A stretch of DNA of 35,566 bases. Source: Planctomycetota bacterium. GTDB lineage: Bacteria; Planctomycetota; Planctomycetia; Planctomycetales; Planctomycetaceae. Under the pieces are notes generated by a model. That model searched no databases. It worked only from the letters and a program-made list of their open reading frames with translations, and was not told the origin of the DNA. Every line of letters starts with the position of its first letter. Position 1 is the first letter of the stretch. Location of the stretch: contig JAQCEJ010000053.1 in NCBI GenBank assembly GCA_027618475.1, forward strand, positions 1 to 35,566, written 5' to 3'. The position numbers were made by a program, and so were the translations under genes. Positions 9,085 to 35,272 of this stretch are shown here, one piece after another.

Positions 9085-9319
9085 GGTGTTGACTCCCTGG
9101 TTGTTGATTTCTGAATTTTGAAATGTGCAAGGCACATCAAAACCGAACGACGAATGCCGAAATGGCAATGACGTACTGATTCTCGAATTGTATTCAGGTG
9201 CGGTTTTAAAGTTGCTGGACGGTGAATTGGTGACCGTCAATACGACGATGATCCCGTCGCCATGGGGTAATGACTCCAGTTTTAGAACTTCAAATTTTGG
9301 AATTCGTCAAACATCATGC

Positions 9320-27940: not shown

Positions 27941-28368
27941 CAATGACATGTGGTTGCAGAGACGAACTTGAATAGCAACAATCTGGCAAGACATCTTACG
28001 CTTGACAGCATAAGATGATGAGTCATTTGGTTTATGTAACCTGTTGTCATCCAAGCGAATACGATTTTTTCTGATTGTCGCTCCATCGACGGAATGCGAA
28101 ACATATTGGAACTACATATCTTTTGTACTCGTCACCATTTCGGGTGTCAAGTTGCCAGAGGATCGGTCTTTCTGAATCCCAAAATGTTTCTCGTGAGCCG
28201 CAAAGAAAACGTTTCAGGCGAGTACAAACGAAGCTGGTGACTGCCGAAATGGCATTGTCGACTTTTGGTCAACGCAAATTGAAGAGCGTCAATATGGCAG
28301 CTTTTTGAGATCCTGTAACATGCGTGCGACAATTGATTTGTGTTAACTGTTTATTGTGTAACGTTTTA

Positions 28369-28395: not shown

Positions 28396-28410
28396 TGGCA
28401 CAAACTTTGC
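28396..28410 (+). promoter_or_regulatory. Sigma-54 (-24/-12) promoter upstream of dnaK
   Basis: TGGCAC (28396-28401), five bases, then TTGC (28407-28410): an exact match to the RpoN consensus TGGCAC-N5-TTGC, with the invariant GG and GC ten bases apart. Transcription would start near 28422, followed by GGAG at 28435 and a short ATG frame at 28446, with dnaK 249 bp further. I found no other match of this quality in the window. Activation would need an AAA+ enhancer-binding protein, not encoded here. Confidence 0.72.
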
Positions 28411-28445
28411 CTTTAATCATTGTTAAATCCTTGTGGAGAACCAAA

Positions 28446-28514
28446 ATGCCTTCGAACACGGTAAATCAAAATTTGCTCGCAATTCATTACGGTTGCGATG
28501 GCAAGGGTATTTAA
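28446..28514 (+). CDS. Candidate 22-residue leader peptide ahead of dnaK
   Basis: ATG 28446 opens a 22-codon frame ending TAA, with GGAG seven bases upstream and the sigma-54 promoter's predicted start about 24 bases before it. The peptide begins MPSNTVNQNLLAIHY and ends CDGKGI. It has no membrane segment or recognised motif. The correct order and spacing of promoter, ribosome-binding site and start argue for translation, but a 22-codon frame can arise by chance. It could be a regulatory leader for the 28671 dnaK gene. Confidence 0.35.
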   Translation: MPSNTVNQNLLAIHYGCDGKGI

Positions 28515-28670
28515 TTCAATGACCTTAAACAGCCTCGAAGAATATCGCAAAGAGATTTCAATTCAAGGCACGTACGTATATCAGCATCTCGGTGGATGTG
28601 AACAAAACGATCGGACTTCGTTCACGTTCCCGAGCCGGCGATCAAAACCATTCAATTTGGAGATGAATTC

Positions 28671-30569
28671 ATGGCGTTAAAAGGAGAGAAAATCGTCGGC
28701 ATCGACTTGGGAACCACGAACTCCGTCGTATCGGTGATCGAAGGGGGAGAAGCAAAGGTCATTGCCAATCTTGAAGGGAATCGTATTACTCCGAGTGTCG
28801 TTGCGTTCACCGATAAGGGTGACATACTCGTCGGAGAACCGGCGAAACGACAGGCCGTTACCAACCCGACAAAAACCATCTACTCGATCAAGAGATTCAT
28901 GGGACGGCGTCACAGTGAGGTCGAAAACGAAGAAAAGATGGTGCCATACGACGTGATTGGCGATCCCAGCGATTACGTAAAAGTCAAGGTTGGAGAAAAA
29001 ATCTACACTCCTCCCGAGATCTCGGCGTTTATTCTGCGAAAATTAAAGGACGCTGCCGAGAGTTATCTCGGGCACAAGGTCAACAAGGCAGTCATCACTG
29101 TTCCAGCGTACTTCAACGATGCTCAACGTCAGGCGACCAAAGACGCCGGTCAGATCGCCGGCCTGGAAGTCGAACGTATCATCAACGAACCTACAGCTGC
29201 TGCTCTTGCGTATGGACTCGAAGCGAAGTCTGACGAGAAGATCGCCGTATTCGATCTCGGTGGCGGTACGTTCGATATTTCAATTCTCGAAGTCGGCGAC
29301 GAACTGATTGAAGTTCTCAGTTCTAACGGCGATGGCCACCTCGGCGGTGACGATTTCGATGAAGAACTTATCAATTACATTGCAGACAAGTTTCGCGCTG
29401 AGAATGGAATCGACCTGCGTAAAGATCCGATGGCGTTACAACGGTTAAGAGAAGCCTCGGAAAAGGCCAAAAAAGAGCTTTCGTCGTCGCAGACGACCGA
29501 TATCAACCTGCCATTTATCACGGCAGATGCTAGTGGTGCAAAACATTTGCAGATGGCAATTACACGTTCTGAATTCGAGCGGATGATCGACGCGCTCGTC
29601 GAGCGTTGCCGACAACCGGTCGTACAGGCGCTAAAGGACGCCAAGCTCGATCCGAAACAAATCGACGAAGTAGTGCTAGTGGGCGGATCGACCCGTGTTC
29701 CCAAAGTACAGGAATTCGTGAAACAGCTGTTTGGTCGGGAACCACACAAAGGGGTCAATCCCGATGAGGTGGTCTCAGTTGGTGCGGCAATTCAGGGAGG
29801 GATCATCGGAGGTGAAGTCAAAGATGTTGTATTGCTTGACGTGACGCCATTGTCCCTCGGCATCGAAACAGAAGGTGGAATCATGACGGTCCTCGTGGAG
29901 CGGAACACGACAATCCCGACCACGAAACGGGAAACCTTCTCGACCGCTGCTGACAATCAGACAGCGGTTACCGTGCGGGTCTTCCAGGGCGAACGTACGA
30001 TGGCCAACGACAACCGTCTGCTCGGGCAATTCAATCTCGAAGGAATTCAGGCTCAGCCGCGCGGTATGCCGCAAATTGAGGTCACTTTCGACATTGATGT
30101 TAACGGTATTCTCAACGTCTCGGCGAAGGATAAGTCAACCGGCAAAGAAACGTCGGTGAAAATTGAGCAATCCAGCGGGTTGTCCGAATCCGAAATTGAA
30201 AAAATGCAGAAAGATGCCGAGGCTCACGCTCAAGATGATAAACAGAAACGCGAGCTGGCAGAGGCCAAGAATTTAGCGTCTCGCATGGTTCACGAGACCG
30301 AGAAACAGCTCAACGAGCATAAAGATAAGCTCGATGAATCGTCGAAGTCAGCGATCGAGGCATCGCTCGGCAAGGTCAATACCGTATTGTTACGTGACGA
30401 TCTCGCCGCAATCAAAAGCGCAACCGAAGAGTTGGCTCAAGCGTCGCAAGCCCTGTTGCGTCATATGCAGGATGCAGGGGGCGGAGCACCGGAATCGGAC
30501 GGATCGGCTTCCGGAACCGATTCAAAGGACGACGACGTAATCGATGCTGAATTTGAAAAGAAAGATTGA
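28671..30569 (+). CDS. dnaK: Chaperone DnaK (Hsp70)
   Basis: 632 residues, full Hsp70. The ATPase domain (1-385) has GIDLGTTNS, the [20 protein letters not shown] block, [25 protein letters not shown] and [11 protein letters not shown]. The substrate-binding domain follows ([14 protein letters not shown]), then a helical lid and the acidic end [13 protein letters not shown], similar to other bacterial DnaKs. It binds exposed hydrophobic segments of unfolded proteins in an ATP cycle assisted by DnaJ and GrpE, neither of which is encoded next to it. GGAG lies eight bases before ATG 28671. The clpB gene follows 217 bp on; the two cooperate in disaggregation. Confidence 0.98.
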
Positions 30570-30786: not shown

Positions 30787-33408
30787 ATGTCATTACCCAT
30801 CGAAAAACTGACGGTTAAGGCACAGGAGGCCTTACAGAAATCGCACCGTCTGGCGGACCAGAACGGCAATCCCGAATTGCAACCGTTGCATTTGCTTAAG
30901 GCCTTGCTCGAAGAAGATCAGGGGATCGTTCGCCCGTTAATCCAGCGTATTGGTGCGAATCTGACGCAACTGCAGTCACTGGTCAACAGCGAAATTGAAA
31001 AGCTTCCTAAGGCCACCGGCCACAGCTTACAGGTTTCTCCGAATCGAGCGTTCATGCAATTGTTCGATCAGGCGCAAACAGTCGCTGACCAGATGAAGGA
31101 TGCTTTCATCTCGACCGAGCATCTGATGCTTGCCCTTACTCAGGTTGACAGTTCCGCAAAACGCCTGCTGGACATCAACGGAGTTGAAGAAGGCGATATC
31201 CTGAATGCGCTCAAAACTGTGCGAGGGGGACAACAGGTGACCGATCAGAATCCTGAAGACAAATACCAGGCCCTCGAAAAATATGGTAAGGATCTCGTCG
31301 CACTCGCCCGACAAGGAAAGATCGACCCTGTCATAGGACGTGACACCGAAATCCGCCGCGTCATTCAAGTTCTCTCGCGTCGACGTAAAAATAATCCAGT
31401 CCTCATTGGCGATGCGGGAGTCGGAAAAACAGCAATCGTCGAAGGTCTGGCTCACCGCATTGTTCTTGGCGATGTGCCACAAAACCTGAAGGAAAAGCGA
31501 GTCATCGCTCTCGATATGGGAGCATTGATTGCTGGTGCCAAATACCGCGGTGAGTTTGAAGACCGATTGAAAGCCGTGCTCAACGAAGTGCAGCAGGCGG
31601 CGGGAAAAATCATATTATTCATCGACGAACTGCACACAGTAGTTGGCGCGGGGGCGGCGGAGGGTGCTGTCGATGCGTCGAATTTGCTTAAGCCTGCGCT
31701 GGCTCGCGGTGAACTCCACTGTGTCGGAGCGACGACGTTGGACGAATATCGTAAGTACATTGAAAAAGATCCCGCGCTCGAACGCCGGTTTCAGCCGGTT
31801 TTGGTAAAAGAACCCAACGTCGAGGACACGGTTTCCATTCTCCGGGGGCTTAAAGAACGTTACGAATCACATCATGGTGTAAGGATCACCGACGATGCCA
31901 TCGTTGCCGCGGCAATGCTCTCCGACCGTTACATCAACGATCGATTTCTTCCCGATAAGGCGATCGATCTGGTCGACGAAGCAGCGAGCCGGCTGCGAAT
32001 GGAAATGGACTCGATGCCGATCGAAATTGATGAGGCGACCCGCGAACTGGCCCGTCTGCAAATAGAAGCGACGGCGCTCGGAAAAGAGAAAAACGCCGAA
32101 AGCCGAAGCCGGCTCGAAGATCTGAAACAACAAATTGCTGAGCGAGAAGAATCCGTTAATACACTTAAGGCCCGCTGGGAGGTAGAGAAAAGTTCACTTT
32201 CGAAATTGCGACCGTTGAAAGAAGAAATCGAACATCTGCGAACCATTTACGAGCAGGCGTTCAACACGGCACAGAGAACAAATATGAATGCCGATTACGA
32301 AAAGGCATATCAAGCAGAACAGCAGCTTCGCGACGCCGAACGAAGTCTTGCCGATGTTGAAAATCGTGTCGCTCAACAAGGTGATGCCGGCGGGCAGCGA
32401 TTGCTTCGCGAAGAAGTGACTTCGGACGACATTGCCAAAGTCGTCAGTGCGTGGACGAATATTCCAGTCACAAAAATGATGCAAGGCGAGCGTGAAAAGC
32501 TGCTGCAGATGGAAGATCAAATACATAAGCGAATGATCGACCAGGCTGAAGCCGTCACGGCTGTTTCTAATGCTGTGCGGCGAGCACGTTCTGGTCTGCA
32601 GGATCGTAATCGTCCCGTCGGCTCGTTCATCTTTCTCGGCCCGACTGGCGTAGGCAAAACCGAGTTGTGCAAAGCCCTTGCCGAATTCTTGTTCGACGAC
32701 GAGCGCAATATGATTCGAATCGACATGAGCGAATTTATGGAGCGGCATAGCGTCGCTCGATTAATCGGGGCTCCTCCAGGATATGTCGGTTACGATGAAG
32801 GAGGGCGATTGACAGAGGCAGTCCGCCGACAGCCATACTCGGTGATTCTGCTCGATGAAATCGAAAAGGCTCACCGCGACGTATTTAATATCTTGTTACA
32901 ACTGCTCGACGACGGGCGACTCACCGACAGTCACGGTCGAACCGTTGATTTTACGAATACCATTGTGGTGATGACTTCGAACATCGGCAGCCAGACGATT
33001 ATGGACCTCGCCGGTAAGGAAAACGAAAAGGAAATACGCAATCGAGTAACTCATGCTCTTGAACGCGAATTTCTGCCGGAGTTTCTTAACCGCATTGATG
33101 AAATCATCGTGTTTCATCCACTCGGCCAAGAAGAGATCCGCCAGATTGTTGATTTGCAGTTGAACAAGCTGGTCCAACAGCTCAAGACGAATCAGTACGA
33201 GCTAATCGTATCGGAAGCGGCCAGAGTCTTAATCGCCGAAGAAGGCTACGACCCGGTATATGGAGCAAGACCTCTTAAGCGTGTGATTCAACAGAGATTA
33301 CAAAATCAACTGGCTAGTGAAATTCTCTCAGGGCGATACACCGAGGGGTGCCAAATCAACGTGGACGTCGACAACGGAGAATTTGTCTTCCACAAATCGG
33401 CAATGTGA
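30787..33408 (+). CDS. clpB: ATP-dependent disaggregase ClpB
   Basis: 873 residues, the normal length of ClpB (Hsp104). Order: N-terminal Clp repeat domain (about 1-145), AAA-1 with Walker A GDAGVGKT (208-215), pore-loop KYRGEFEDR, a coiled-coil M domain (about 410-530) that distinguishes ClpB from ClpA/ClpC, AAA-2 with Walker A GPTGVGKT (618-625), the pore segment GYVGYDEGG and the C-terminal D2-small domain. ATG 30787 has AAGGAG seven bases upstream. It unfolds aggregated protein by threading it through a hexamer, with DnaK delivering substrate; the dnaK gene precedes it. No IGF/L ClpP loop was noticed, as expected for ClpB. Confidence 0.98.
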
Positions 33409-34007: not shown

Positions 34008-34092
34008 GCCCAAGTGGCGGAACTGGCAGACGCGCTAGGTTCAGGACCTAGTGACCTTAACGGTCGTGGAGGTTCGAGTCCTCTCTTGGGCA
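34008..34092 (+). tRNA. tRNA-Leu (anticodon CAG)
   Basis: 85 bases folding as a class II tRNA: acceptor GCCCAAG with CTTGGGC, D-arm, anticodon stem CTAGG/CCTAG with loop TTCAGGA giving CAG (34042-34044), a long variable arm (GACC-TTAAC-GGTC), T-arm with TTCGAGT, and discriminator A at 34092. CCA is not encoded. It reads CUG leucine codons. A tyrosine recombinase gene begins 107 bp downstream in the same direction, so the tRNA 3' end is a likely integration site. Confidence 0.96.
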
Positions 34093-34198: not shown

Positions 34199-35272
34199 AT
34201 GGCACGTCCAAAATCCCTTGTTCCTCGGCTTTGTATCGACAAATCCCGTAATCGGGCGTTCTGTAAAGTCGATGGAAAATTCATCGTTCTCGGCCCGGCT
34301 GGCAGTCCAGCCGCTCAAGCAGCATATGGGCGACTGCTGACCGATCTGGCACAACACGGGTCAGAAACCGCCGTCAGTTCTGTAAAAAGACGGGGATCGG
34401 CTTTACGGGAATCGCAACTCGACTTCACCCTGAACGACCTGTTCCTGCGGTTTGTCACCGAGGAACTTCCTCGTTACAGCAAGGCGGAACAATTCTGCCT
34501 GAAGTCGGCCATCAAGATTGCCCGTGAACTCTACGGCGAGACTTCGGCAGCGGAATTCGGGCCACTTCGTTTTCGCACCATCCGCGATGGCATGATTCGT
34601 AAGGGCTGGTCACGATCCTTTATTAATAAGGAAATGAAACGCCTGCGGATGATCGTCCGCTGGGGCGTCGGTTGGGAGTTGGTCCCCCAGACCGTGGCGG
34701 ATGCACTCTCGGCGGTCAAGTCTCTCGGCTACGGTGACACCGATGCTCCAGAGTCAAAACCTCGGCAGGCCGTCCCGGAATCCGATCTGCTGGCTGTGAG
34801 GGCCGTATTATCGGAACTGCATCGGGATATCTTCGATGTCATGTTGATGACCGGCTGTCGGCCCGGCGAACTGCTCGGATTGACGACCGGCATGATTGAT
34901 CGCAGTGGTGAGATATGGCGGGCTGAACTTACGAAACATAAGACGTCACATCAAGGTAAAAGTCGGACACTGCATTTCAATGTGACGGCTCAATCGATCC
35001 TGCGAAAATATCTCACGGCGAACCCCGACGAACGGCTCTATAAAATCCGGCGTGATTCGTTCGGTAACGCCGTCAAGCGAGCGTGTCTCAAGGCTGGCGT
35101 GCCGAAGTTTACGCCGCACTGGTTGAGACATTGTGTCGCGACCCGTCTTACTGACGAGATGGGCACCGAAGCAGCACAACGGCTCTTGGGGCATGCCTCG
35201 CGGGCAATGACCGAAAATTACAGCCGGGCGGCGGAACGACAGGCCATCGAGGCAGTGAAACGGCTGGGCTGA
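34199..35272 (+). CDS. Tyrosine recombinase (phage-integrase family)
   Basis: 357 residues. The N-terminal arm/SAM-like region (about 1-190) begins MARPKSLVPRLCIDKSRNRA, a start seen in planctomycete integrases. The catalytic domain has the Arg of TGCRPGELLGL, a Lys in TKHKTSHQGK, HWLRH (the H-x-x-R box), the His of LLGHAS and the nucleophile Tyr in TENYSRA, so all active residues are present. AAGGAG lies eight bases before the ATG. It cuts and rejoins DNA at att sites, and its place 107 bp after tRNA-Leu suggests integration into that tRNA. No excisionase or other phage gene is seen before the window ends. Confidence 0.92.
   Translation: MARPKSLVPRLCIDKSRNRAFCKVDGKFIVLGPAGSPAAQAAYGRLLTDLAQHGSETAVSSVKRRGSALRESQLDFTLNDLFLRFVTEELPRYSKAEQFCLKSAIKIARELYGETSAAEFGPLRFRTIRDGMIRKGWSRSFINKEMKRLRMIVRWGVGWELVPQTVADALSAVKSLGYGDTDAPESKPRQAVPESDLLAVRAVLSELHRDIFDVMLMTGCRPGELLGLTTGMIDRSGEIWRAELTKHKTSHQGKSRTLHFNVTAQSILRKYLTANPDERLYKIRRDSFGNAVKRACLKAGVPKFTPHWLRHCVATRLTDEMGTEAAQRLLGHASRAMTENYSRAAERQAIEAVKRLG

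Follow-up and report, generated by a model that had tools for sequence, protein, structure and literature searches.

A sigma-54 element and paired palindromes upstream of dnaK

The window, by which we mean the whole 35,566-nt stretch of planctomycete DNA analyzed here, carries dnaK and clpB on its forward strand, with a sigma-54 (RpoN) promoter element and a set of palindromes upstream of dnaK:

28145..28157 (centre 28151), no strand assigned: possible third, weak palindrome TGTCAAGTTGCCA, PWM score 12.0, given low weight
28242..28254 (centre 28248), no strand assigned: distal enhancer palindrome TGCCGAAATGGCA, PWM score 18.0, with the promoter element 148 bp downstream
28287..28299 (centre 28293), no strand assigned: proximal enhancer palindrome CGTCAATATGGCA, PWM score 18.5, 45 bp from the distal palindrome
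28396..28411, + strand: sigma-54 (-24/-12) promoter element TGGCACAAACTTTGCC, exact consensus, of a type coupled to the palindrome in 30/30 family loci
28422, + strand: transcription start as predicted from promoter class without transcript data, 12 nt downstream of the -12 GC
28422..28670, + strand: predicted dnaK 5' leader, containing two small ORFs
28671..30569, + strand: dnaK, TIGR02350 936 bits (cut-off 822.55)
30787..33408, + strand: clpB, TIGR03346 1311.7 bits (over the cut-off), 217 nt after dnaK

The original prediction of an exact RpoN consensus with correct spacing before dnaK was confirmed: TGGCACAAACTTTGC (TGGCAC-AAACT-TTGC), at 28396-28410 on the + strand, is the sole zero-mismatch match in the window, it lies ~260 nt 5' of the dnaK start, and the downstream gene is a true DnaK by TIGR02350. 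The GG (-24) and GC (-12) of the element are 10 bp apart, the proper sigma-54 spacing, from which transcription is predicted to start at about 28422. An exact match is nonetheless insufficient by itself, so that the argument from consensus stood as to the reality of the element but not as to what the match alone can establish. When up to two mismatches to the RpoN consensus were allowed, the window yielded 42 matches vs 31.4 expected, only one of them exact, and the 33 exact matches in the source genome comprise 17 copies of one repeat and 16 other sites, vs 18 matches to a reversed control pattern. Because the consensus by itself occurs no more often than the reversed pattern, it proves nothing alone, and conservation and position must carry the case. 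The repeat is a 15-mer, TGGCACGCGATTTGC (e.g. G000:C6:25-39 and C73:22-36), with 5 of its 17 copies lying within 50 bases of a contig start, and it is an interspersed repeat whose sequence imitates a sigma-54 promoter.

Upstream activator sites of sigma-54 promoters usually lie ~80-200 bp away. The two strong palindromes of the window, at 28242-28254 and 28287-28299, have their centres ~174 and ~129 bp ahead of the transcription start predicted for dnaK and meet this expectation. When both strands of the window were searched, a sigma-54 site coupled to an upstream palindrome was found at one place only, namely dnaK. A further palindrome match at 9161, inside a dimethylformamidase-like ORF and with no promoter coupled to it, was taken as chance. 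The gap between dnaK and clpB was also scanned and holds no enhancer/promoter pair of its own, from which we infer that clpB is perhaps read together with dnaK.

Two small ORFs are present in the predicted leader, one of 22 aa at 28446-28514 behind a good ribosome site (TGGAGA) and one of 53 aa at 28519-28680 that overlaps the dnaK start; neither has a Pfam match. An RNA thermometer in the leader was considered and rejected, as there was no Rfam match at the gathering threshold and the fold z-score vs shuffles was 0.05.

Conservation of the coupled elements across dnaK loci

The palindrome was derived from the dnaK upstream regions of the source genome and 29 other members of its family (30 loci). 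Counting spaced tetramer pairs upstream of the sigma-54 sites of these loci recovered TGCC-N4-TGGC in 26/30, while in one shuffled set no dyad occurred in more than 6/30, and the matrix built from this dyad describes a palindrome, TGYCA-N3-TGRCA, whose centre is A/T. In 29/30 family loci the palindrome is present twice at a distance of 30-60 bp, which is 45 bp in 23 loci, 46 bp in 3, 47 bp in 2, and 35 bp in 1. Among 40 further loci of the class, a palindrome pair is present in 23, with 40 bp as the commonest spacing (8 loci).

In each of the 30 family loci, the best -24/-12 site is found 105 to 329 nt ahead of the N-terminal motif of DnaK and scores 17.5-21.7 of a possible 21.7, on weights that we set ourselves from the RpoN consensus. 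Taken alone, this site beats shuffled sequence at p<0.05 in 24 of the 30 loci, not in all. We therefore used a joint test requiring a sigma-54 site score of at least 17.5 and a palindrome score of at least 11, the palindrome lying 60-220 bp upstream. All 30 family loci pass, vs 1/30 on the opposite strand, but these are the loci on which the palindrome matrix was trained. The independent evidence comes from the 40 further loci, which span 13 numbered families and include four loci of the same family, and from a set of loci classified by record title. The joint arrangement is present in 37/40 of the further loci (shuffles, 0.05/40; opposite strand, 0/40) and in 14/20 planctomycete-titled loci, among them L115 and L124, whose titles read Phycisphaerae or Phycisphaeraceae, vs only 1/59 dnaK loci with other titles, a weak match. 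As background, both strands of 63 other loci gave 11 matches in 1,134,716 bases, two of which are groESL promoters.

The makeup of these sets bears on the counts. Twenty of the 40 further loci were picked from 25 additional main-dnaK rows, two of these being partial, and the other 20 came from a set of 22 genomes in which a complete N-terminus was required, so that the fragments in G146 and G154 were excluded. Of the 80 titled loci, L163 was left out because it lacks upstream DNA; planctomycete membership was set by record titles alone and includes Kuenenia and Singulisphaera bins. The three misses among the 40 consist of a locus whose palindrome is 51 bp away (L075), a second dnaK copy (L089), and a locus without a palindrome (L093). 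One of the six planctomycete-titled misses has only 318 nt of upstream sequence, and five of the six keep a GG/GC site scoring at least 19.7. Failure of GG/GC to be conserved upstream of related dnaK genes had been set beforehand as an outcome that would refute the prediction, and it did not occur: the element is conserved through the class and in the two Phycisphaerae- and Phycisphaeraceae-titled loci. The accompanying suggestion that such control is unusual for the phylum does not hold, since in the planctomycetes examined the arrangement is the rule rather than the exception.

Two loci outside the planctomycete-titled set deserve mention. The dnaK upstream region of L125, titled Gemmatimonadetes bin94 and left out of the joint-test matches, has planctomycete-type palindromes (scores 20.0, 12.1, and 6.2) and a sigma-54 site at closer spacing, perhaps reflecting a mislabelled bin, a transfer, or a wider spread. 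In L135 (Lentisphaeria), dnaK has a perfect sigma-54 site, TGGCACGTCTGTTGCT, but the repeats upstream of it are of another kind (TGTGACAC...GTGACA); this related phylum perhaps follows the same principle with a different activator.

The palindrome at other chaperone genes

The palindrome is not confined to dnaK. Across nine genomes of the class, the pattern TGYCAWWWTGRCA was found 38 times, vs 4 times for its reversed control, and 18 of the 38 sites precede dnaK, groE, hsp20, or clpB: 7 lie before dnaK, 6 before groES-groEL or groEL (G121, G045 twice, G061, G018, and G013), 4 before hsp20 operons (three sites at two promoters in G018, and one in G042), and 1 before clpB (G004), where a second palindrome lies 45 bp away. 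The remaining 20 sites are not assigned to chaperone genes, and several fall inside coding sequence. Ten chaperone promoters other than those of dnaK were thus available for inspection, and nine have a sigma-54-like site scoring at least 18 within reach, four of these being weak (18.2-18.7) and one of the weak four overlapping a palindrome; the exception is the G042 hsp20 promoter, where no sigma-54 site reaches 18. Some of these gene assignments are provisional, with the groEL genes of L311 and L319, the hsp20 of L318, and the second genes of the hsp20 operons named from translation only, the groEL of L322 named by tblastn, and the clpB of L327 incomplete in the fetched stretch (1185.4 vs a cut-off of 1232.1).

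The source genome follows the same pattern, with palindromes at two groEL genes (C172 and C185) and two hsp20 operons (C103 and C50). Sigma-54 sites scoring at least 19.7 are found at both groEL genes and the C103 operon, and none of at least 18.5 at the C50 operon. For this genome we examined 11 regions covering 13 of 30 palindrome sites, chosen by eye mostly for A/T-rich centres, with L049-L063 left out.

Control elements common to dnaK, groE, hsp20, and clpB are what a heat-shock regulon calls for, and this criterion is met. The original prediction had treated dnaK alone as the target, which proved too narrow, as the arrangement covers several chaperone genes. In Rhodopirellula baltica, the available part of a published study reports dnaK, groEL, hsp20, and clpB to be heat-induced (PMC2754498). 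Induction of these same-named genes fits the proposed regulon; the R. baltica promoters themselves lie outside our comparison. Separately, a small protein encoded at 2692-3186 of L315 (G033:C1:4064624-4069624), with TPR matches below the Pfam cut-off, stands behind a palindrome and a sigma-54-like site and is a possible further member of the regulon.

RpoN, HrcA, and RpoH in planctomycete genomes

RpoN is present in 56/59 genomes, over the cut-off in 55, and in 52/52 of those of good quality; the source genome encodes it at C174:18010-19464 (384.5 bits, cut-off 277.35). HrcA was detected in 0/59 genomes by a search that was positive in 9/14 known genomes used as a control, over the cut-off in 6 of them, and the best CIRCE matches in the 30 family dnaK upstream regions reach only 9-13 of 18 letters (11 at the window locus). 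Control of dnaK by HrcA/CIRCE is rejected on these grounds. No protein in the 59 genomes reaches the RpoH cut-off of TIGR02392, which is a proteobacterial model, the best scoring 181.7 of the 323.1 bits needed, and lower-scoring sigma-70-family proteins are found in 59/59. Unlike this result, the R. baltica genome is stated to have rpoH in the portion of that report available, which also observed no heat regulation of rpoN (PMC2754498). The absence of HrcA/CIRCE and sigma-32 control, first proposed from the window, can accordingly be upheld for HrcA and CIRCE, and for sigma-32 only in the sense that no protein attains the RpoH cut-off.

A candidate activator

Twelve proteins of the source genome have strong matches to the sigma-54 activator domain (PF00158), ten of them with a GAFTGA-like loop that is exact in five. 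Three of these activator types, C83, C211, and C208, recur in six genomes with few activators, where 30 of 36 strong activator-domain matches were examined: C83 and C211 are each found in 6/6 and C208 clearly in 5/6. G146 has only a 41 percent relative of the C208 type, and no intact main dnaK was found in that genome.

Gene context makes the C208 type, a REC-AAA+-Fis response regulator whose copy in the source genome lies at G000:C208:198-1811, the most likely activator, at about even odds and without binding data. By Pfam, proteins of this type consist of REC, sigma-54 AAA+, and Fis-type HTH domains. The order in G138 is palindrome, sigma-54 site, groES, groEL, C208-type activator, and mutL, and a palindrome directly precedes the C208-type gene in G124, G078, and G096. 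No sigma-54 site is found between palindrome and activator gene in these last three genomes, so that the effect of the palindrome there could be either activation or repression. Overall, a palindrome is nearby at 4 of 14 C208-type loci (at least 50 percent identity), and the locus of the source genome has none. The neighbours at these 14 loci include mutL in 11, a small histidine kinase in 7, and pnp before the kinase in 6; the kinase beside the gene in G124 has HisKA and HATPase domains only. The 14 loci came from regions chosen by ORF length or earlier matches, not at random, and G078 and G096 belong to one genus. A suggestive but single case is G182, where dnaK carries TGACAAAATGTCA instead (score 8.6) and the recognition helix of the C208-type protein reads GISERTLYRK rather than GIGERTLYRK. 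In G174, a planctomycete-titled genome that has a palindrome and a sigma-54 site at dnaK (L130), two of three activator matches were examined and neither is a C208 orthologue.

The C83 type was an early choice for its seeming universality. It was dropped in favour of C208: its neighbours in the source genome are a HEAT/REC protein, a CcsA-like gene, and hemA, all named by reading, and none of 12 loci has a palindrome immediately in front of the gene. The C83 of the source genome (L205 7523-8635) and its orthologues in all six few-activator genomes are short enhancer-binding proteins without a sensor domain. The hemA and CcsA-like genes accompany it in the source genome and some others. Beside the C211 type stands a conserved gene, which we read as a kinase in 5/6 loci, and here too no palindrome directly precedes the activator gene.

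Proposed regulation and alternative readings

The conservation of the joint element, the palindromes at chaperone genes, the lack of HrcA and of a protein at the RpoH cut-off, and the presence of RpoN together point to an enhancer-driven sigma-54 chaperone regulon. That this arrangement is common to heat-shock genes across the group probably means that they are controlled by an activator acting at a distance rather than by a heat-shock sigma factor or HrcA. We put at roughly 85% the probability that the element at 28396 is the working sigma-54 promoter of dnaK and part of a chaperone regulon that replaces sigma-32 and HrcA/CIRCE in Planctomycetota. What is observed comprises the DNA elements with their spacing and conservation, the genes they precede, RpoN, about a dozen activator genes, and the absence of HrcA; promoter use, heat response, and looping are inferred, in the absence of transcript, rpoN-mutant, or binding data. 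Placement of dnaK under an enhancer-binding activator, as originally proposed, is supported to that extent by the conserved element and by a paired enhancer that had been missed.

As we envisage it, RNA polymerase with RpoN would sit in a closed complex at 28396-28411, while an AAA+ activator (a bacterial enhancer-binding protein) would bind the two palindromes 45 bp apart as a multimer. A stress signal, perhaps passed through the neighbouring kinase, would switch the activator on, and under protein stress it would loop over and open the dnaK promoter with ATP hydrolysis. The promoter would serve dnaK, perhaps dnaK-clpB, and the same palindrome and promoter type would control groES-groEL, hsp20 operons, and clpB, whose products would be expected to rise together. 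A broader version, in which the core heat-shock response of the whole phylum runs through sigma-54 and one NtrC-type two-component activator, with a doubled TGYCA-N3-TGRCA before dnaK, groESL, hsp20, and clpB replacing sigma-32 and HrcA, and with the activator gene in some lineages in the groESL operon or behind its own palindrome, is a tentative proposal for which we would not quite claim even odds. If true, a heat-shock regulon run by sigma-54 would stay tightly shut in the absence of activation driven by ATP, in contrast to both textbook schemes.

That the consensus match is a chance one without function is hardly tenable. The exact consensus is indeed not enriched genome-wide, but conservation, coupling to the palindrome, and the contrast with outgroup loci refute this reading as far as sequence can. 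A more serious possibility, which we still consider unlikely, is that the sigma-54 promoter is real but secondary, with a housekeeping or other sigma-70-family promoter providing basal and heat-induced dnaK and sigma-54 adding expression under some other condition, such as envelope stress, starvation, or development. In its favour, a sigma-54 promoter is silent until its activator acts, dnaK expression is usually continuous, and several sigma-70-family genes fall below the RpoH cut-off in the 59 genomes. The one sigma-70-like match upstream of dnaK, at 28305-28333, is weak, however, and shuffled sequences give a mean of 1.8 such matches; moreover, an enhancer common to dnaK, groE, hsp20, and clpB matches the makeup of a heat-shock regulon.

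Even with sigma-54 as the main route to dnaK expression, the activator could be another conserved enhancer-binding protein, either the sensor-less one beside hemA (C83; P0001) or the C211 response-regulator type. We find this doubtful without dismissing it, given that both are present in all six few-activator genomes and have conserved recognition helices, whereas C208 is clear in only five. Neither gene has a palindrome directly before it (12 and 6 loci, respectively), in contrast to the four loci of the C208 type, and in G178, a draft genome with a palindrome and a sigma-54 site at dnaK (L100), the best listed match to the C83 protein is the C208-type gene.

Relation to known systems and prior work

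Sigma-54 promoters before planctomycete chaperone genes were already predicted in 2025. In the part of that study available to us, predictions in Planctomycetota are enriched for GroEL, GroES, GrpE, DnaJ, DnaK, and IbpA, an enrichment that comes mostly from Planctomycetia and is lower in Phycisphaerae, and sigma-54 promoters are also predicted at NtrC-family regulators of the phylum, there called ZraR (PMC12316311, PLoS One 2025). Unlike the present work, it names, as far as its available text goes, no shared enhancer and no chaperone activator, and the terms 'UAS', 'upstream activat', 'palindrom', 'HrcA', 'CIRCE', and 'rpoH' each have 0 occurrences in its main text. According to papers that cite it, an earlier study likewise surveyed a planctomycete, Pirellula sp. 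strain 1, in silico for sigma-54 activators and their promoters (Studholme and Dixon 2004); it is cited for csrA and a thioredoxin promoter. No chaperone targets were seen in the accessible portion of the Desulfovibrio vulgaris sigma-54 regulome (PMC4641369). Within the open-licence literature, and so only as weak evidence of absence, we found no description of a shared enhancer, its spacing, or a chaperone activator in planctomycetes, nor any explanation of chaperone control in Planctomycetota in the absence of HrcA and of a clear sigma-32. Our analysis adds to these predictions by defining an enhancer, listing its targets, and naming a candidate activator, all directly testable in a laboratory planctomycete.

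The proposed regulon has the same target genes as HrcA/CIRCE and sigma-32 control. Those systems work by repression or sigma exchange, whereas here HrcA and CIRCE are absent, the RpoH cut-off is unreached, and activation would occur at a distance. The candidate activator resembles NtrB/NtrC systems in its receiver, AAA+ sigma-54, and Fis-type HTH domains and in the small histidine kinase beside it at 7/14 loci, but differs in its palindrome and in its targets, which here would be chaperones. Sigma-54 together with an enhancer-binding protein reportedly also governs a chaperonin operon in Bradyrhizobium japonicum, where NifA and sigma-54 control groESL3; that operon is said to be one extra copy that serves nitrogen fixation, alongside heat-shock control of the ordinary kind, whereas here the main chaperones are concerned.

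Beyond clpB, the right end of the window holds a tRNA gene at 34008-34092 (Rfam) followed by a tyrosine-type integrase ORF at 34199-35272 (PF00589), which likely mark an integrated element.
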